This document shows, in pieces, positions 6,764 to 48,179 of a stretch of 64,000 nt of DNA; the stretch's first letter is position 1, and each line of letters opens with the position of its first letter. The stretch comes from Agrobacterium salinitolerans (GTDB lineage Bacteria; Pseudomonadota; Alphaproteobacteria; Rhizobiales; Rhizobiaceae). The notes beneath the pieces were generated by a model, which was not told the origin of the DNA, did not search any database, and was given only the letters and a program-made list of their open reading frames with translations. The stretch covers positions 186,001 through 250,000 of the forward strand of contig NZ_MRDH01000006.1 of assembly GCF_002008225.1 (NCBI RefSeq), written 5' to 3'. The position numbers and the translations under genes were made by a program.

Positions 6764-8656
6764 TTAGAAACCGACCATCGCCTGATCGGCGAGGGCCTGA
6801 TTGATCGTCACACCATAGTCATTCTGCAGGCGGTTGACCATCTGGTCCAGCATGTCGTCGCCGGCGGCGCGGGCAATGGCGGCGAACTGCTGGTCGTCAT
6901 TGGCGAGCGCATCGGCAGGCGCATTGGTGTCGACCGAGGTGACCTTGAAGAGGATACGGCTGGAACCGCCGGCATCAGCCGCCTCGCCCACCTTGCCCTC
7001 TGCGCCGGAGAAGACCGCCGCGATCGTCTGCTGGCCGAAAATAGCGTCTTCGCTGTTGCGGCGCAGGCCGGACTTCTGTTCGACCGCGAGGCTCAACTCA
7101 CCCGCTACTGCTTCCAGCGTCTCGCCCTTTTCGACGCGCGTTTTCAGTTCTTCGGCTTTGGCGGCAAGCGCGTTGCGCTGCTGCTCCGCCGTCCAGTCGG
7201 CCACGACATCGTCGCGGACTTCGGCAAGCGTGCGGTCGCGTGCGGGGATGATCTGGTCGACATCGAACCAGATGTAGCCTTCACGGCCGAGATTTATCGG
7301 CAGCGCTTCCGTCCCGGGTTCGGTCTTGAAGACCTCCTGCGCCAGCTGCGGGGAGGGAAGGCCCTCAACCTTATCACCCTTTTCATCGAGGCCGGACGCG
7401 TCGATGGCGGCGACGGTGACGGGTTTCAGGTTCAGCTGCTGGGCAGCGTCGGCGAGCGAAGAACCGCCGGCGCGCAGGTCTTCATACCGGTCGTGAACAT
7501 TGGTGATTTCTTCGGCGGCGGCGGCCGTGGCGAGATCCTTGCGGATATCTTCCTTCGCCTCTTCCAGTGTGCGGGTCGTTTCCGGCTTGATGCCGGTGAC
7601 GCGCAGGATGACCGGGCCAAAAGAGCCGTCGACCACCGGAGATACGCCGCCATCCTTCTGGATGGCGAAAGCGGCGTCGGCAATCGACTGGTCGGGAATG
7701 GTGTCCTTGGTGAATTCGCCGAGCGTGACGTCGGACGCGGTCTTGCCCTGATCCTTCACCACCTGGTCATAGGTGGTGTTGCCAAGCCTGATCTGCTCGG
7801 CGGCAGCGGCTGCCATTTCCTTTTCCGGGAAGGTCAGCTGCTCGACGGTGCGACGGCCGGCGGTGCGGAAGCTGTCCTTGTGGCTGTTATAATAGTCGGC
7901 AATCTGCGCGTCCGTTACCGAGGCCGGCTCGGCGATGTCGGACGGTTCCAGCTTCACATAGGTGAACTTGCGGAATTCCGGTGCGCGATATTTCGCCTTG
8001 TTGGTTTCGAACCAGGGGGCAAGCACGTCGTCGCCCGGTGCCTTGACCGGTGGAATGACGGCGTTCGAAAGAATGACGTAATCGACGGCGCGCTGCTCGT
8101 TGCGATATTGTTTCAACGCATCCACCAGCACCTGCGGTGCGGTAAAACCGTCCGACACGGCTTCGACGATCTGGCTTCGGACGGCGACCTTGCTGCGTTC
8201 CTTGATATAGTCATCCTCGCGGAACCCCGAATTGCGCAGGCGTTCGCTGAAGAGATTGCGATCGAACTGGCCGTTGACCGACTTGAAGGCCGGGTCTTCG
8301 GCGATCAGGTTGGCGAGGCGGTCTTCCGAAAGGCCGAGATTCATTTTTGATGCCAGTTCGTCAAGTGCTGCGCCCGCCGCAAGCTGGCTGAAGACCTGAC
8401 GATCAATGCCGAAGGCCTTGGCCTGCTCGGTCGTCAGCCTTGTTCCGAATTGACGGCTGAGATCGGAAATCTGGCGCTGATAGGCAAGGCGGAACTCCTG
8501 CGGGCTCACCGTCTGGTCACCCACCGTCATGACGGCATGGGAATTGGAGGTGACAAGCGATGCGGAAACGCCCCAGACGCCGAACGAAACAACAAGCAGG
8601 AGAAGCAGCAGCTTGGCTGCCATGGTTCGAGAAGCATTTCTCAGGGAATCGAGCAT
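6764..8656 (-). CDS. PpiD-type membrane-anchored peptidyl-prolyl isomerase/chaperone (SurA N-terminal domain)
   Basis: A 630-residue protein with a short cytosolic N-terminus, one membrane anchor (AAKLLLLLLVVSFGVWGVSA, about residues 13-32) and a large periplasmic part. The first third matches the SurA_N_3 chaperone domain; a degenerate parvulin-like domain follows at about 240-370 (residues around TFPEKEMAAAAAEQIR and GVSPVVDGSFGPVILRV), then further helical repeats. The architecture matches PpiD, which holds newly secreted proteins at the SecYEG exit. It is the first gene of the minus-strand run that continues with trpD. The isomerase activity of the parvulin domain is uncertain because PpiD domains are often inactive. 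Confidence 0.9.
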   Translation of the reverse strand: MLDSLRNASRTMAAKLLLLLLVVSFGVWGVSASLVTSNSHAVMTVGDQTVSPQEFRLAYQRQISDLSRQFGTRLTTEQAKAFGIDRQVFSQLAAGAALDELASKMNLGLSEDRLANLIAEDPAFKSVNGQFDRNLFSERLRNSGFREDDYIKERSKVAVRSQIVEAVSDGFTAPQVLVDALKQYRNEQRAVDYVILSNAVIPPVKAPGDDVLAPWFETNKAKYRAPEFRKFTYVKLEPSDIAEPASVTDAQIADYYNSHKDSFRTAGRRTVEQLTFPEKEMAAAAAEQIRLGNTTYDQVVKDQGKTASDVTLGEFTKDTIPDQSIADAAFAIQKDGGVSPVVDGSFGPVILRVTGIKPETTRTLEEAKEDIRKDLATAAAAEEITNVHDRYEDLRAGGSSLADAAQQLNLKPVTVAAIDASGLDEKGDKVEGLPSPQLAQEVFKTEPGTEALPINLGREGYIWFDVDQIIPARDRTLAEVRDDVVADWTAEQQRNALAAKAEELKTRVEKGETLEAVAGELSLAVEQKSGLRRNSEDAIFGQQTIAAVFSGAEGKVGEAADAGGSSRILFKVTSVDTNAPADALANDDQQFAAIARAAGDDMLDQMVNRLQNDYGVTINQALADQAMVGF

Positions 8657-13989: not shown

Positions 13990-15168
13990 TTGGCACATGC
14001 GCCTTACGTTCTTTTCCGGGATGATACGACCGGCACGGTGACAGCCTTCACCGAGCCGGAAGAGATCATCGTCGCGGATGAACCGGCGGCGTTTTTTGCC
14101 GCGCTGGAGCGCATGGAGGCGTTGCGGCGCGCCGGGAAATACCTTGCCGGCTACATGTCCTACGAGGCTGGTTTTCTGTTCGAGCCGAAGCTTGCGCCTT
14201 TTGCCGCCGAGCCCCGCAACGTACCGTTTCTCAATTTCGGCGTCTTCTCCGGCTCGCAGCCGGATGAAGGCCGCTTTGCGCGACCCGACGCGGTGCCAGA
14301 TGCGGACGCCTTTCTGACCGAACCGGTAGCGGCCTGGACGCTTCCCGAATATCGGCAGCGTTTCGAGAAGCTGCATGAGCATCTGCGCCGCGGTGATTGT
14401 TACCAGGGCAATCTGACCATGCCCGTTCACGCCCGCTGGAGCGGCGATCTGCTGACGGCCTTCTGGTCGTTGATCGAACGGCAGCCGGTGAAATATGGCG
14501 CGCTGGTCGATCTCGGCGGTCCGGTCATCCTGTCACGCTCGCCGGAACTGTTTTTCTCGATCGATGGCGAAGGTTTCATTGAGACCCACCCGATGAAGGG
14601 AACCACGCCGCGGGGCGCGGATGCGGAAGAGGACCGGGCGATCATCGCGGCGATGCTTGGCGACGAAAAAACACTCGCCGAAAACCGCATGATCGTCGAT
14701 CTCTTGCGCAACGATATTTCCCGCATCACCGAGGTTGGCAGCCTCGATGTGCCGCGGCTGTTCGATATCGAGACCTATCCCACCGTGCATCAGATGGTCA
14801 GCCATGTCAGGGCGAAACTTCTGCCCGATGTGACGGTGGAAGATATCTTCGCCGCCCTGTTTCCCTGCGGCTCCGTTACCGGCGCACCGAAAATGTGGGC
14901 GATGAAAATCCTGCGCGAGCTGGAGGCGACCCCGCGCGACGCCTATTGCGGCGCAATTGGCTTCATGTCTCCAGATGGTGAGATGCGGTTCTCCGTGGCG
15001 ATCCGCACGCTCAGCCTGTTTGACGACGGCCGTGCGGTCTTCAATGTCGGCGGCGGCATCGTGTTCGATTCCGTAGGTGAGGCAGAGTATGACGAGTGTC
15101 TGCTGAAATCGAAATTCGCGGTGGGGGACAGGTTGCTGCGGGCTAAGCAGCCAAATGTGTGCCCTTAG
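13990..15168 (+). CDS. pabB: Aminodeoxychorismate synthase component I (PabB-like)
   Basis: A protein of about 392 residues with a chorismate-binding domain: QRFEKLHEHLRRGDCYQGNLT, ILSRSPELFFSI, HPMKGTTPRG, ENRMIVDLLRNDISRI, YPTVHQMVSHV, FPCGSVTGAPKMWAMKIL and GAIGFMSPDGEMRFSVAIRT are the signature blocks of the PabB/TrpE group. The HPMKGT motif (Lys in place of the anthranilate-synthase Ala) favours aminodeoxychorismate synthase for folate over anthranilate synthase. There is no fused PabA or PabC. The most likely start is the TTG at 13990 (LAHAPYVLFRDD); no in-frame ATG is close and the Shine-Dalgarno is weak, so the exact start is uncertain. It converges with the decarboxylase gene. Confidence 0.88.
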   Translation: MAHAPYVLFRDDTTGTVTAFTEPEEIIVADEPAAFFAALERMEALRRAGKYLAGYMSYEAGFLFEPKLAPFAAEPRNVPFLNFGVFSGSQPDEGRFARPDAVPDADAFLTEPVAAWTLPEYRQRFEKLHEHLRRGDCYQGNLTMPVHARWSGDLLTAFWSLIERQPVKYGALVDLGGPVILSRSPELFFSIDGEGFIETHPMKGTTPRGADAEEDRAIIAAMLGDEKTLAENRMIVDLLRNDISRITEVGSLDVPRLFDIETYPTVHQMVSHVRAKLLPDVTVEDIFAALFPCGSVTGAPKMWAMKILRELEATPRDAYCGAIGFMSPDGEMRFSVAIRTLSLFDDGRAVFNVGGGIVFDSVGEAEYDECLLKSKFAVGDRLLRAKQPNVCP

Positions 15169-15202: not shown

Positions 15203-16480
15203 TCAGCGCCCGATCACCTCAAACGTCCCATCCTCAACCAGCACTTCCTTCGCCGCCGGGTGGCTGAGAAAGCCCACGGGGCTGGCGCTGGCGCCATAGG
15301 CGCCCGATTGCAGGATGGCGATGAGGTCGCCGGCTTTCAGCTTCGGCAGGGCCGCATTGCGGGCAAGCGTATCGAGCGGCGTGCAGAGCGGGCCGACGAT
15401 GGTTGCCGTTTCCTCATGCTCCGCCTGCATCATGGCAGGTGCGACAATGGGATAGTTGCGCTTGACGATCTGGCCGAGATTGCCGGAGGCGGCGAGATGG
15501 TGATGCATGCCGCCATCCACCACCACGAAGGTGGTGCCGCGCGAGGTCTTTACCGAATTCACCTCCGCCACATAGAGGCCGCCGGAACCGGCGAGGAAAC
15601 GGCCGGGTTCGATGATGATATGGGCTTCGGCGATCAGCGGGTGCTCGTTAAGAAGCGCCTTGAGATCGGGAATGGAAGCGGCCACCTTGGCGAGATCAAG
15701 CGGCGTTTCGCCTGCAAAATAGGGGATGCCGAGACCGCCGCCGAGATCGATGGTTTCGAGCGGCTTGCCGAGCATCTCGGCCATGCGCGCGGCAACGGAA
15801 ATGCCGTGTCGCCACTGGGAGACAAGCATGTCGGCATCGAGAATCTGCGTGCCGCCGTAAATATGGACGCCGACGAGATCGATATATCGGGCGTCCTTGA
15901 AGAGCGGCAGGACATTTTCCAGCTCTTCCTCGTCGAAACCGAAGGCGGTGGCCTTGCCGCCCATGCGCATGGCGCCCGCCTGCGCATCCGGCACCGGATT
16001 GATGCGGATCGACGCCTTGACCGGCCTGCCGATCGCCTCGATGCGGGCAATTTCCTCGGCGCTTTCGATGTGGATTTCGCCGATACCGCTCTCGATCACT
16101 TCGCGCAGTTCGGCCATGCCTTTGCCGGGGCCGGCGAAGATGATGTTTTCCGCTGCGACACCAGCCTTAATGGCGGCGCGATATTCGCCGACGGAAGCGA
16201 TTTCCGCACCCGCACCTTCCTGCCGGAAAAGCGAGACGATGGCGGGCAGGGGATTGGCCTTCACCGAATAATAGATATCGGCAAAACCGCCCAGCGCGGT
16301 TTCGAGATCGCGATAGGCGCGACGCATGGCGGCGGCGTCATAAAGGAAGCACGGCGTTCCGGTCCCGGCGACAACATCGCGCACGGAAAGTCCGCCGATC
16401 ATCAGATCGTTCTCGCTTATGTCGAATGACGCGGCTGCAAAGGCCGGGCCGTGGGTCTGGGGTTTATCCGTTGGCGCCAT
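15203..16480 (-). CDS. Type III PLP-dependent decarboxylase (LysA/ornithine-decarboxylase fold)
   Basis: A protein of about 425 residues (start MAPTDKPQTHGP at 16480) with the alanine-racemase-like barrel and C-terminal beta domain of fold-III decarboxylases. The PLP lysine is Lys74 in YYSVKANP; HIYGGTQ, the phosphate-binding GGGLGIPY, EPGRFLAGSGG, the second catalytic Cys366 in GPLCTPLD and GAYGAS are all present, so it should be active. It differs from housekeeping LysA and resembles the decarboxylase subgroup found with an AMP ligase and an acyl carrier protein in exosortase-linked polysaccharide loci. It overlaps the upstream ligase gene by 17 bases and is last in the cassette. The substrate is unknown; a diamino acid or an ACP- or CoA-linked derivative is plausible. 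Confidence 0.88.
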   Translation of the reverse strand: MAPTDKPQTHGPAFAAASFDISENDLMIGGLSVRDVVAGTGTPCFLYDAAAMRRAYRDLETALGGFADIYYSVKANPLPAIVSLFRQEGAGAEIASVGEYRAAIKAGVAAENIIFAGPGKGMAELREVIESGIGEIHIESAEEIARIEAIGRPVKASIRINPVPDAQAGAMRMGGKATAFGFDEEELENVLPLFKDARYIDLVGVHIYGGTQILDADMLVSQWRHGISVAARMAEMLGKPLETIDLGGGLGIPYFAGETPLDLAKVAASIPDLKALLNEHPLIAEAHIIIEPGRFLAGSGGLYVAEVNSVKTSRGTTFVVVDGGMHHHLAASGNLGQIVKRNYPIVAPAMMQAEHEETATIVGPLCTPLDTLARNAALPKLKAGDLIAILQSGAYGASASPVGFLSHPAAKEVLVEDGTFEVIGR

Positions 16481-17996
16481 TGTCCGTCCGTTCGCGCACC
16501 AGCGCGCGGTAATCCACCTTGCCATTGGCCGTGACCGGCAGTCGTTCCACCAGTTCGATGGCGCGCGGGATCATGAAGGGGGCGAGCATTTCGGCGGCCT
16601 TCTTCAGCGCTGCCGAAACGTCGATATTCTGGTTGGCGGCAGTCGCCACGGCATGGACCTTTTCGCCAGCGAAGGGGTCCGGCAGGCCGATGACGGCGAC
16701 CTCACGGAAAAGCCCCGTCGACATCAGGCTTTCCTCCACCTCGGTCGGGCTGATGCGATAGCCCGACGATTTGATCATCGCATCGTTGCGGGCGACGAAG
16801 CTGAAGAAACCGTCCTCGTCCTCCACCGCCAGATCGCCGGAATAACACACGGTCTCGCCGCCCAGCGCCGCCGGAATGAAGGGGTGAGGGCGCAGCACCT
16901 TTGCCGTATCCTCCGGCCGGTTCCAGTAACCCAGCGAGACGGTTGGGCCGCGATGCACGAGAATGCCGGGTTCACCCGGCTTCGCCCTCTGTCCCTTATC
17001 GGTGACGATGAAGATTTCACATTCGGGAATGGCCTTGCCGATGGAAGTTGGGCGGCGGTCGATTTCATCGGGCGGCAGGAAGGTGGAGCGGAAGGCTTCC
17101 GTGAGGCCATACATCAGGTAGATTTTCGTATCCGGCAACTTCTCGCGCAAGGCCTTGACGGTTTCCTGCGGCACGCGTCCGCCGGAATTGGTGATGTAGC
17201 GCAGATGCGGCAGAGGCGTCTTTGTCAGCGACGGGGCGGCTTTCGTCAGGATCGCCCAGATCGTCGGCACGCCGGCGAGACCCGTGATGGCATGGTCGCG
17301 CAGATCGCGGATAATCTCGTCGCCCAGCCGGAAGGTGGAGATGATCGTGGCCGCGCCCTGTTCCACCGCCGTGAGCAGCTGGTTCAGGCCATAATCGAAG
17401 CTGAAGGGCAGAAGGGACAAAATGCGGTCCTTGCCGGTGATTGCCAGATAGGTGCGCACGATGCGCGCGCCGGCCAGAAGATTGCGGTGTGACAGCATCA
17501 CGCCCTTGGGCGAGCCGGTGGAGCCGGATGTATAAAGAATGGCGGCCAGGTCTTCGCCGATTGCCGCTGAGGGGCGGGCGAGTGTTTCGGCGCGTGCCTC
17601 AATTTCTTCCGCCAGCAGGACCGTGACCTCGGGAAGGTCTTCCAGTGCCGCTTTCAGCTCTTCCATCATCGCGGCGTCGCTGATGACGATTTTTGCGCCG
17701 CAATCCTTGACGATATGGCGAATCTGCTGCGCTTTCAGCAATGCGTTCACCGGCACGAAGACGCCGGACGCCATGCTCACACCGAAGATCGACCAGCATT
17801 CCGCGATGCCGCGCGGCAGATAGATAACGACGCGGTCACCGCGTTGCGCGCCGGCTTCCTGCAATGCCGCTGCGCAACGGGCCGCCGCTGTGGCAAAGTC
17901 GCGATAATTCAGCGATCGGTCCTTGTGGACTAGTGCCTGGTCGTCGCTTGCCGCGCGGGCGGTAAGCAGGTGGTGCAGCAGGAAATGGGGTGTCAT
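16464..17996 (-). CDS. AMP-forming acyl/aminoacyl ligase of the ANL superfamily
   Basis: A 510-residue adenylating enzyme with the full set of ANL core motifs: LYTSGSTGSPKGVMLSH (A3, phosphate loop), YGLTEAFRSTFL (A5), CYSGDLAVEDEDGFFSFVARND (A7/A8 hinge) and LPVTANGKVDYRAL (A10, catalytic Lys). No carrier or condensation domain is attached; instead a separate carrier protein gene lies immediately upstream with a 4-base overlap (ATGA), so the ligase most likely loads that carrier in trans. It resembles the ligases annotated as exosortase-A-associated. The substrate cannot be read from the sequence with confidence. Confidence 0.9.
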   Translation of the reverse strand: MTPHFLLHHLLTARAASDDQALVHKDRSLNYRDFATAAARCAAALQEAGAQRGDRVVIYLPRGIAECWSIFGVSMASGVFVPVNALLKAQQIRHIVKDCGAKIVISDAAMMEELKAALEDLPEVTVLLAEEIEARAETLARPSAAIGEDLAAILYTSGSTGSPKGVMLSHRNLLAGARIVRTYLAITGKDRILSLLPFSFDYGLNQLLTAVEQGAATIISTFRLGDEIIRDLRDHAITGLAGVPTIWAILTKAAPSLTKTPLPHLRYITNSGGRVPQETVKALREKLPDTKIYLMYGLTEAFRSTFLPPDEIDRRPTSIGKAIPECEIFIVTDKGQRAKPGEPGILVHRGPTVSLGYWNRPEDTAKVLRPHPFIPAALGGETVCYSGDLAVEDEDGFFSFVARNDAMIKSSGYRISPTEVEESLMSTGLFREVAVIGLPDPFAGEKVHAVATAANQNIDVSAALKKAAEMLAPFMIPRAIELVERLPVTANGKVDYRALVRERTDNGANG

Positions 17997-18256
17997 CTCC
18001 TCCGTTCCCTGAGGACGAAGGCGACGAGATCGGCCGGCGTGCCGAGATTTTCGGGCTGGAAATGCTCGTCATCGAGAATGATGCCGAAACTCTCGCCGAG
18101 GAAGACCATCAACTCGAGAAAGCCGAGCGAATCGATCGCGCCGCCTTCGAGAAGCAGCGTATCGGCGGAAAAGGGGGCATAGGCGGGAAAACGGTCAGCC
18201 AGGTAGGAATAAATCGTGTCGGCAACGTCGATTTCATTTTCTTTCGCCGCGAGCAT
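17993..18256 (-). CDS. Stand-alone acyl carrier protein
   Basis: An 87-residue acidic helical protein with the phosphopantetheine attachment motif GAIDSLGFLELMVFLG; Ser43 is the expected modified residue. It is distinct from fatty-acid AcpP (no LGADSLD signature) and closer to peptidyl/aminoacyl carrier proteins of small pathways. The start at 18256 (MLAAKENEIDV) is chosen because the longer reading upstream is not protein-like. It overlaps the ligase start by 4 bases, so carrier and ligase are made together. It needs a phosphopantetheinyl transferase encoded elsewhere. Confidence 0.88.
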   Translation of the reverse strand: MLAAKENEIDVADTIYSYLADRFPAYAPFSADTLLLEGGAIDSLGFLELMVFLGESFGIILDDEHFQPENLGTPADLVAFVLRERRR

Positions 18257-18361
18257 GCTTGTTCTCCAATTTCCCGTTTGAAACCATGGACCCGCCCCGG
18301 AACGACGCTTTGCCTGTAAAGGCCAGGATTCCATCAGGTCACGAAGGATTCACTAGAATAC

Positions 18362-19201
18362 CTAAGGTGGCAATAACACCAACTCTGAGTATGTTTCGTT
18401 AATAAACTGTGGGTTCCATGCGCCTTTTACTTGTATTGGTGCAATTTTATGTGCGGCAAAGCCGGCCGCCTTTCGGTCCTCCTCGCAAGCCGCCATGGTG
18501 AGCGCGAGCCGGCCTTTACCCACCAGGTGGCGGGCAATGGCGGGCAGGTGGCTTTGCGCGATCTGCCGGTCCTCGCAATAGATCAGGCGGGCGGAGGGGA
18601 GTTTTTTGGTTATGGTTTTCAGGAAAACCAGAGGATAGGGACGGCCTTCCGCTTCCAGAATGGCCACGATGCAGCCCAGACGGGCGTGGTCTTCCAGCAT
18701 GTCGCGTGTTTCTGAAGAGAGAGTTTTCGCCGTTGTCTGTGTGAACGGATGAAGCCGTCCGCCTGTCGGGCGAAAAGTCGTGAGCGGCAGCGGATAAAAC
18801 AATGTGCAATTTGTCACCGTGTGAAACCCCAGCCGCTCGTTCAGCTGGCGGGCTTCGGGCGAGGGGGTGAGATCGGTGAAGAGTTCGTTTTCGGCCGATG
18901 ACGCCATCTGCAACATGCGCGGCGCGAACCAGCGGCAGGACGGCTCGACATACCAGCTTGAAAGATTGACGATCACTTGGCCGGTATCGGGCAGGCGGCT
19001 CCTGATTGTCAGCAACACGCCTGCGGCATCGTCGCCCTTCATCAGCAATTGGCCTATCGGGCCGAGATGACGCCGCTCGTGATGTTCACCGATAAGCGAC
19101 AGGCCTCGAGCCCAGAAGGCCTCGCTTTTTTCCGGAAAACCTTTCGCCAGAAGGCCAACGGCGGCGGCGCGGTTTCCGTTGTCGATCGGTACGATTTTCA
19201 C
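18362..19201 (-). CDS. GNAT-like acyltransferase (putative), first gene of the ACP/ligase/decarboxylase cassette
   Basis: A 279-residue protein without membrane segments. The N-terminal half reads like a GNAT acyltransferase: GVLLTIRSRL, VNLSSWYVEPSCRWFAPRML (beta4 and the turn into the CoA-binding helix) and EARQLNERLGFHTVTN (beta5/C-terminal region). The C-terminal half (from about residue 140) looks like a second, more diverged GNAT-type unit. It is transcribed in the same direction as the acyl carrier protein gene, 105 bases upstream of it. In this setting it could transfer the group carried by the ACP to an amine. It is equally possible that it is an independent gene; I know no characterised homologue. 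Confidence 0.6.
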   Translation of the reverse strand: MKIVPIDNGNRAAAVGLLAKGFPEKSEAFWARGLSLIGEHHERRHLGPIGQLLMKGDDAAGVLLTIRSRLPDTGQVIVNLSSWYVEPSCRWFAPRMLQMASSAENELFTDLTPSPEARQLNERLGFHTVTNCTLFYPLPLTTFRPTGGRLHPFTQTTAKTLSSETRDMLEDHARLGCIVAILEAEGRPYPLVFLKTITKKLPSARLIYCEDRQIAQSHLPAIARHLVGKGRLALTMAACEEDRKAAGFAAHKIAPIQVKGAWNPQFINETYSELVLLPP

Positions 19202-19384: not shown

Positions 19385-20512
<1,128 letters not shown>

Positions 20513-20662
20513 ATTCGATCTCCTCAGTCTTTTAATGTCGAAATAAAAAGGTTTTGCCCGAGCGCGACTGGCCGGGCAAGGCAAAATCCGGTGACCCGGA
20601 ATGGAAAAGGGGCGTGTGCGGACACATGCCCCTTTATTCTGGCCGATAGATGCGGGGCAGGC

Positions 20663-35952: not shown

Positions 35953-36036
35953 TGACGGTAAGGTGCAGCAGGCCACATTGCCGCACCACCCGCAGGATAC
36001 TTGCATTCGCAAGCTTTTTTGCCCATAGCTTCTCCC

Positions 36037-36192
36037 GTCAGGTGCCCGCCCTTGCGGCGGGAGAATCGGGAATCCGGTGAAAGACCGGAACGTGCCCAAC
36101 GCTGTGAGGCGGATGCCCTTTTTCTCATGCCACTGAAGTTATTCGGGAAGGCGAAAGGGGTGGATGAAGCCTAGTCAGAAGACCGGCCTGAC
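36037..36192 (+). promoter_or_regulatory. Cobalamin (AdoCbl) riboswitch upstream of bluB
   Basis: All core elements are readable in order: P1 stem GTCAGG (36037-36042) pairing with CCTGAC (36187-36192); GGTGCC; a GC-rich P2 hairpin; CGGGAATCCGGTGAAAGACC; ACGTGCCCAACGCTGTGAGG; GCCACTG; TCGGGAAGGCG; GGATGAAGCC and AGTCAGAAGACCGGCC. The aptamer ends about 110 nt before the bluB start. In this class, ligand binding lowers expression, here most likely by blocking translation, as no terminator with a T-run is seen before bluB. Confidence 0.95.
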
Positions 36193-36298
36193 ACGATAGA
36201 CCGAACCGCGCGGACGGCGGCAGGTTGCTGAAAAAGCGCGTCGTCGCGGCGGAACCGGTATGGTTTCTGCATCGGCGCGCCCGCATTGTTGGGGATAA

Positions 36299-47962: not shown

Positions 47963-48179
47963 TTCATTCTCCGGTATATGACCGGGCCGTCCCGCATGCT
48001 GTCGCCGATATGGCCGAGGTCGTCCTCGCGCCTGACGATATAGAGCTTTTGGGTGGATTTTTCAAGCGCCGGGTGCTGCGGCATCCAGGGCGGTGCTTTC
48101 ATTCTCGTACATACCAACGGAACCGTGATCGGAACAAGATCGGCGTATTTTCGTTATCGCTGATGGAAGGAGGCGCGCC

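Follow-up and report, generated by a model that had tools for sequence, protein, structure and literature searches.

In a 64,000-nucleotide stretch of Agrobacterium salinitolerans (contig NZ_MRDH01000006.1, positions 186,001 to 250,000; 'the window' denotes this whole stretch) we analysed a cassette of four minus-strand genes, which encode a tandem-GNAT protein, a stand-alone carrier protein, an ANL ligase and a fold-III pyridoxal phosphate (PLP) decarboxylase (Table 1). Sequence comparison makes a beta-aminoacyl-carrier module of the VinN/AfcQ type, coupled to a tandem-GNAT transferase, the likeliest reading of the cassette. In the scheme that we propose, the ligase would adenylate an amino diacid, most likely L-aspartate, at the side-chain carboxylate and load it onto the phosphopantetheine arm of the carrier. 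The decarboxylase would then strip the alpha-carboxylate from the thioester-bound group, leaving a beta-alanyl- (or other omega-aminoacyl-) carrier protein, and the tandem GNAT would accept this thioester and form an amide with an amine acceptor. The acceptor would most likely be an amino sugar of a cell-surface glycan, with the other glycan genes elsewhere in the genome. We put the probability of the whole scheme, from amino-diacid loading through decarboxylation on the carrier to transfer to an amine of what is likely a surface glycan, at about one half; the acceptor is its weakest step.

The four genes are real, adjacent and subject to purifying selection. The gene set and its conservation are read directly from the DNA: an open reading frame (ORF) check of the window confirmed the coordinates given by a first-pass annotation, and the ratio of nonsynonymous to synonymous divergence (dN/dS) was 0.08-0.29 for each gene in eight pairwise comparisons, made against 8 of the 12 nearest loci. 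Overlaps of 4 and 17 bases had been reported. The first, between the carrier and ligase ORFs, is present; the second, between ligase and decarboxylase, holds only with the in-frame Met16 start of the decarboxylase (16480), which is favoured by the alignment of relatives, and the longest ORF gives 62 bases. All four genes were found in the genome itself and in 23 of the 38 other genomes of the genus, and at the thresholds used the cassette was not found in the remaining 15; in G005 the GNAT gene is split across two frames. The four genes are also adjacent in two genomes of another family (G139 and G184). A decarboxylase scan of named genomes gave 135 relatives, and the best 80 loci were retained; all counts out of 80 refer to these. 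Ligase, carrier and decarboxylase stood together in 77 of the 80 (including L164, where ligase and carrier are broken), with the tandem GNAT present as well in 52. The neighbourhood comparison thus bore out the expectation that the genes are neighbours in related genomes, and because the adjacency recurs in other families and dN/dS is low, the grouping is more than a chance arrangement.

Among solved structures compared with the full-length ligase, the gramicidin synthetase LgrA scored highest and VinN second, as the best stand-alone enzyme; over residues 270-344 VinN was the top match and aligned without gaps, while DltA and LgrA required them. The equivalent residues of ligase and VinN are Met295 and Met323, Phe302 and Lys330, Arg303 and Arg331, and Ser271 and Ser299 (VinN chain and published numbering differ by an offset of 16, inferred from a motif). 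A review (PMC11253843) states that in VinN the amino group is bound by Asp230 and that a loop, which is shortened, has Lys330 and Arg331 as its key residues. The cassette ligase has the Asp, the Arg and the shortened loop of such an adenylation enzyme. Asp201, Met295 and Arg303 were present in every one of 80 ligases compared (the window enzyme, those of 76 loci and 3 of exosortase type; L164, L181, L196 and L200, which are broken, cut or without ligase, were left out). They recur in three distant relatives, two of which (L096 and L097, 38-40% identity) carry a VinN-like Lys-Arg pair where the cassette has Phe-Arg; judged from these alignments, two pocket variants exist across the wider ligase family. 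The genome gives eight further ANL matches, some partial, and in the four full or near-full genes among them the Met and the Arg were each found in none and the Asp in one, a long frame resembling a non-ribosomal peptide synthetase. Since the pocket matches that of VinN (Asp201, Met295, Arg303 and the short loop), the substrate is predicted to be an amino diacid, with activation at the carboxylate of its side chain. The first-pass annotation had the ligase load an amino acid or an acyl group; the amino acid is retained here as an amino diacid, and the fatty acyl-CoA ligase reading was rejected on the pocket residues.

The nearest solved structure to the decarboxylase was BtrK (286 bits; best LysA, 175), which is named L-glutamyl-[BtrI acyl-carrier protein] decarboxylase. 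The two share the motif GGMHHH, slightly varied in some rows, where LysA has AGMNDLIRPS. The PLP lysine and catalytic cysteine, previously listed as intact Lys74 and Cys366, are Lys89 and Cys381 in the longest ORF and occur without exception in the 81 decarboxylases compared (the window enzyme and those of the 80 loci). Kinship with BtrK and the shared motif are observed, in a comparison that took in no VinO or AfcP sequence; the order of steps we infer. Because the decarboxylase is nearest to an enzyme with a carrier-bound substrate, the amine probably arises on the carrier, and of the earlier proposal, a decarboxylase giving an amine, the amine stands and its free form probably does not. The carrier itself matched the NCBIfam model for the AmcB carrier (40.9 bits, E 1.7e-10, under the cut-off of 80), and Pfam matched neither the carrier nor the GNAT-like protein at E 0.001. 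The pantetheine serine noted earlier was found within a D-S-L-G motif at ORF residue 69, which is position 43 from the likelier start, Met27, where GGAG lies 7 nt ahead. This serine was conserved in 77 of 78 carriers, the single gap being L164 with its broken genes, and the protein is a stand-alone carrier as in VinN/VinL/VinO-type modules.

For the fourth protein of the cassette, NCBIfam likewise gave no match at E 0.001, and a sequence search of the PDB found none below E 0.7 (the profile gave two chance-level matches, E 0.75-0.78); 53 aligned members yielded one weak Acetyltransf_1 match and one weak TagF_N match. An AlphaFold2 model (mean predicted local distance difference test score 91.8, predicted template modelling score 0.89) has two GNAT-like halves, both covered by structural matches to GNAT proteins. 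Foldseek returned GNAT proteins such as 3n7z and Eis. The top VIA-align rows included the glucosamine N-acetyltransferases 4zm6 and 5kga (Z 13.9 and 13.5; 247 and 252 aligned residues; root-mean-square deviation 5.0 and 5.1), with the rows of this enzyme among the top matches at Z 13.3-13.9, 247-252 aligned and deviations of 5.0-5.2; 3ddd and single-domain aminoglycoside acetyltransferases such as 1s3z came within 1 Z of them. On the predicted model the protein is a tandem GNAT by fold, and the structure gives the fold, not the substrate. The earlier label of a GNAT-like acyltransferase joining an acyl group to an amine agrees with this model as regards the fold; the group transferred is probably aminoacyl instead. 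An analogy is offered by Fem ligases and aminoacyl-tRNA:protein transferases, which have a GNAT fold and use aminoacyl donors.

The donor of the tandem GNAT we infer from its neighbours. The protein occurs in 36 of 297 genomes of the order, and in 14 of the 36 a cassette-type carrier and ligase lie beside it: the genome analysed here, 12 genomes of one family (f20; 13 loci) and G305, which has the Sinorhizobium (S.) meliloti gene order. The decarboxylase was checked in the genome itself, G139, G184 and G305. In 10 other genomes of the 36 the tandem GNAT has an amino acid:[carrier protein] ligase (NF005479) no more than 10 kb away, and in five of these no more than 175 bases away. The chance expectation for pairing within 10 kb was ~0.12 among the 30 genomes that have both; the 10 genomes represent five families, with five in one genus, and hence fewer independent events. 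These loading enzymes differ from the cassette ligase in being related to class II tRNA synthetases, and no cassette-type decarboxylase was found beside them. A Pseudochrobactrum homologue of the tandem GNAT adjoins a DltA-like ligase and a carrier, without a decarboxylase. Because homologues adjoin an unrelated carrier-loading enzyme, the tandem GNAT is likely a carrier-dependent aminoacyl transferase. A literature search, which covered few subscription journals, found by title and abstract start no paper on amino acid:[carrier protein] ligases with GNATs; the use of carrier-bound aminoacyl groups was reportedly left open when these ligases were described by Mocibob and colleagues in 2010.

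The trio of ligase, carrier and decarboxylase is known in kind. With the butirosin enzymes BtrI/BtrJ/BtrK the cassette shares a decarboxylase closest to the one named for a carrier-bound glutamyl group. In butirosin the finished acyl group is handed to an aminoglycoside amine; BtrJ, unlike the cassette enzyme, is not known to belong to the ANL ligases, nor the butirosin transferase to the GNATs. The vicenistatin beta-amino-acid starter module VinN/VinL/VinO (and fluvirucin FlvN) combines a stand-alone adenylation enzyme, a stand-alone carrier and a PLP decarboxylase that acts after loading, a precedent for the order proposed here (PMC11284099). VinN and the cassette ligase have the pocket Asp, Met and Arg and the loop length in common, whereas the cassette lacks a polyketide synthase, has Phe in place of Lys330 and has the tandem GNAT as partner. 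In the AfcQ/AfcK/AfcP set of the AFC-BC11 pathway of Burkholderia, a second precedent, the available text of PMC12186527 has L-Asp loaded on the carrier and decarboxylated there to beta-alanine, and AfcQ shares the Arg of VinN. That set differs in belonging to a 25-gene antifungal lipopeptide cluster, in which a fatty-acyl ligase occurs together with KAS III-like transferases; the same text mentions no GNAT.

The nearest named relatives of the window are Agrobacterium, and the four-gene form was seen, among others, in Agrobacterium, Shinella and Devosia isolates and in bins, which may be mixed, named Phreatobacter, Hyphomicrobium, Reyranella, Methylocystis and Symploca. The GNAT gene is downstream, not upstream, in L211 and L223, and its match in L231 reaches only 79 bits. 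The three loci of the 80 without the trio comprise two with the decarboxylase alone and one cut by a contig end. A trio without the tandem GNAT was present in 25 loci: 23 of Methylobacterium or Methylorubrum (between L187 and L229), where no tandem GNAT adjoins, L174 (cut by a contig end) and L213. No replacement transferase was found among nine genes scanned in eight Methylobacterium loci, and the product of the trio may there be used by a gene elsewhere. In L213, a Planctomycetota bin, another GNAT-domain protein (Acetyltransf_9, 7061-8164) lies directly upstream of the carrier, in the place of the tandem GNAT. In L130/L164, on a plasmid of Rhizobium CC-CFT758, the ligase is in pieces across frames and the carrier is seemingly broken, from pseudogene formation or sequencing error. 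Synonymous divergence (dS) is uneven along the cassette: against L152 it was 0.55 for the GNAT and 0.16 for the ligase, and against L154 and L155 it was 0.33 and 0.24 for the GNAT and 0.43 and 0.49 for the ligase, which suggests recombination inside the cassette. In 21 of the 23 cassette-bearing genomes of the genus frmA is found no more than ~215 bases upstream, so a mobile island in Agrobacterium is not supported; of the two exceptions, G014 has frmA on another contig, and G038, whose cassette stands at the end of a contig, gave no match to frmA.

Homologous cassettes lie within polysaccharide clusters in Shinella HZN7 and WSC3-e, Rhizobium CC-CFT758, S. meliloti (pSymB) and Aureimonas, where they are accompanied by genes for glycosyltransferases, for export or a flippase and, often, for a deacetylase. 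Further cassettes of this sort were seen in Shinella lacus, in one Devosia with an O-antigen ligase and a deacetylase and in another with a sugar transferase; tandem-GNAT homologues without the trio lie within polysaccharide clusters on Roseateles, Methylocystis and other Shinella plasmids. The cassette is therefore not an orphan in all genomes; in Agrobacterium no glycan gene was found beside it. An amine of a surface glycan is our best guess for the acceptor, and the glucosamine N-acetyltransferases among the top structural rows point the same way. The first-pass annotation left the end product as a small N-acyl amide or a modifying group; of these, a group that decorates a surface glycan has somewhat more support than a free N-acyl amide.

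Several observations weigh against the scheme. The direct neighbours of the Agrobacterium cassette are frmA and pabB, with no glycan gene found beside it, and a tally of the neighbours of 27 of the 52 GNAT-bearing loci, 121 proteins in all, showed no partner in common (among the 25 families listed, of 123, the highest counts were DctP 4, polysaccharide deacetylase 4 and flippase 3). Since 25 of the 80 loci have the trio but not this GNAT, the trio can act without it. Among the 36 genomes with a tandem GNAT, 12 have no clear carrier-loading partner beside it: six have ANL or carrier pieces within ~5 kb, some low-scoring, five have none, and G155, at a contig end, was left out. Glucosamine, aminoglycoside, peptide and fatty-acyl transferases all fall within ~2 Z in the structural comparison, which does not indicate the acylated substrate. 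Because the Lys330 of VinN is replaced by Phe302, the substrate may not be aspartate; MAFFT puts an Arg of the DltA-like enzyme in the Arg303 column, though within a longer loop; and BtrK uses a glutamyl-carrier, which would give gamma-aminobutyrate (GABA).

These points bear on two alternatives that keep most of the chemistry. The aminoacyl group made by the trio might go to a secreted small molecule (an N-acyl amide, a short beta-alanine peptide or part of a siderophore), with the GNAT forming the amide. The Vin and Afc sets serve small molecules (PMC11284099, PMC12186527), the GNAT is missing from the Methylobacterium loci, and many cassettes share no neighbours past the four genes, none being found in a clustering of 90 loci made with a simple ORF caller. 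The same clustering and the neighbour tally gave no conserved tailoring, export or fatty-acyl ligase gene, and several cassettes sit within glycan clusters; we regard this as the foremost alternative, yet a doubtful one. The second alternative keeps the rest of the scheme but takes another amino diacid as substrate, either one such as glutamate, from which GABA-carrier would form as in butirosin, or a substituted aspartate. The name of BtrK and Phe302 favour such a substrate, while in VinN (PMC11253843) and AfcQ (PMC12186527) a loop of the VinN type and the Arg are described for substrates of the aspartate type; we consider it unlikely.

Two further readings would change the nature of the cassette. 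Annotation elsewhere would make its enzymes the acyl-CoA ligase and decarboxylase of an exosortase-A/PEP-CTERM system, and the kinship proposed by the first-pass annotation was borne out when both models were searched, TIGR03098 and TIGR03099 being the best NCBIfam models of ligase and decarboxylase. Both scores stay below the curated cut-offs (576.6 bits against 592.35, and 416 against 478.45), the Asp and the Arg of the pocket point to an amino acid as substrate, and the absence of an exosortase, first noted near the cassette, extends to the whole genome (99.99% complete), in which PF09721 had no match; the control search was positive in 1 of 14 control genomes. Membership, which the missing exosortase contradicts, was rejected as very improbable. 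With no exosortase in the genome and both enzymes below cut-off, the cassette is by sequence a sister of the exosortase-associated trio, with which it has three gene kinds in common, and not a member. The exosortase-type pairs of S. meliloti and Aureimonas also have a tandem-GNAT homologue upstream, within polysaccharide clusters; their ligase and decarboxylase pass the cut-offs, whereas the window pair does not. In the literature search, with its thin cover of subscription journals, no paper came up on what the exosortase-associated ligase, carrier and decarboxylase do. A housekeeping duplicate, with the decarboxylase as a spare copy of LysA or of ornithine decarboxylase and the other genes beside it by chance, is barely credible. 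The LysA model TIGR01048 gave 272.7 bits (cut-off 297.9, not reached), but the gene set is conserved, and in a tree of 33 rows, including 21 of the 80 loci, the cassette enzyme groups with exosortase-type enzymes, L125 and a Burkholderia sequence (support 84/82). The genome's own LysA groups with that of Aquifex (97/96), and its weaker decarboxylase homologue (L233) is another separate gene on another branch, which contradicts the lysA or speC reading and led us to reject it. BtrK and several outgroups are on long branches, so the exact placement is unsure.

Table 1. Cassette features and flanking genes, in window coordinates
Feature	Coordinates	Strand	Remarks
Tandem-GNAT gene	18362..19201	-	279 aa; GTG start; GGAG 8 nt upstream; proposed carrier-dependent aminoacyl transferase
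Carrier protein gene	17993..18256	-	stand-alone acyl/aminoacyl carrier; 87 aa from Met27; ORF extends to 18334
Proposed phosphopantetheine Ser codon TCG	18128..18130	-	carrier ORF residue 69
ANL ligase gene	16464..17996	-	510 aa; VinN-type pocket; proposed amino-diacid:carrier ligase
Ligase Arg303 codon CGC	17088..17090	-	aligned with VinN Arg331
Fold-III PLP decarboxylase gene	15203..16480	-	425 aa from Met16; proposed carrier-bound aminoacyl decarboxylase
Cassette flanks	frmA 19385-20584; pabB 13990-15168, plus strand

Elsewhere in the window we observed a cobalamin riboswitch at 36023-36205 (+, 122 bits) and a guanidine-II riboswitch at 47982-48031 (-, 38.1 bits against a gathering threshold of 32).

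In the literature search, which covered few subscription journals, we found neither a trio coupled to a tandem GNAT nor the proposal that the exosortase-associated ligase works on amino diacids. A wider reading, which we hold tentatively and at somewhat less than even odds, is that tandem GNATs form a family of carrier-dependent aminoacyl transferases that supply the acceptor-side enzyme missing from at least three unrelated loading routes: the VinN-type trio with its decarboxylase, the tRNA-synthetase-like amino acid:[carrier protein] ligases and the DltA-like ligases. The trio version would beta-alanylate surface glycans, and the exosortase-associated acyl-CoA ligase would be an aspartate:carrier ligase. 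A gene set that recurs across Hyphomicrobiales gains a testable function. Enzymes annotated as 'acyl-CoA ligase, exosortase A system-associated' are predicted to be amino-diacid ligases, and the tandem GNAT is proposed as an enzyme that uses the aminoacyl groups which amino acid:[carrier protein] ligases place on carriers.

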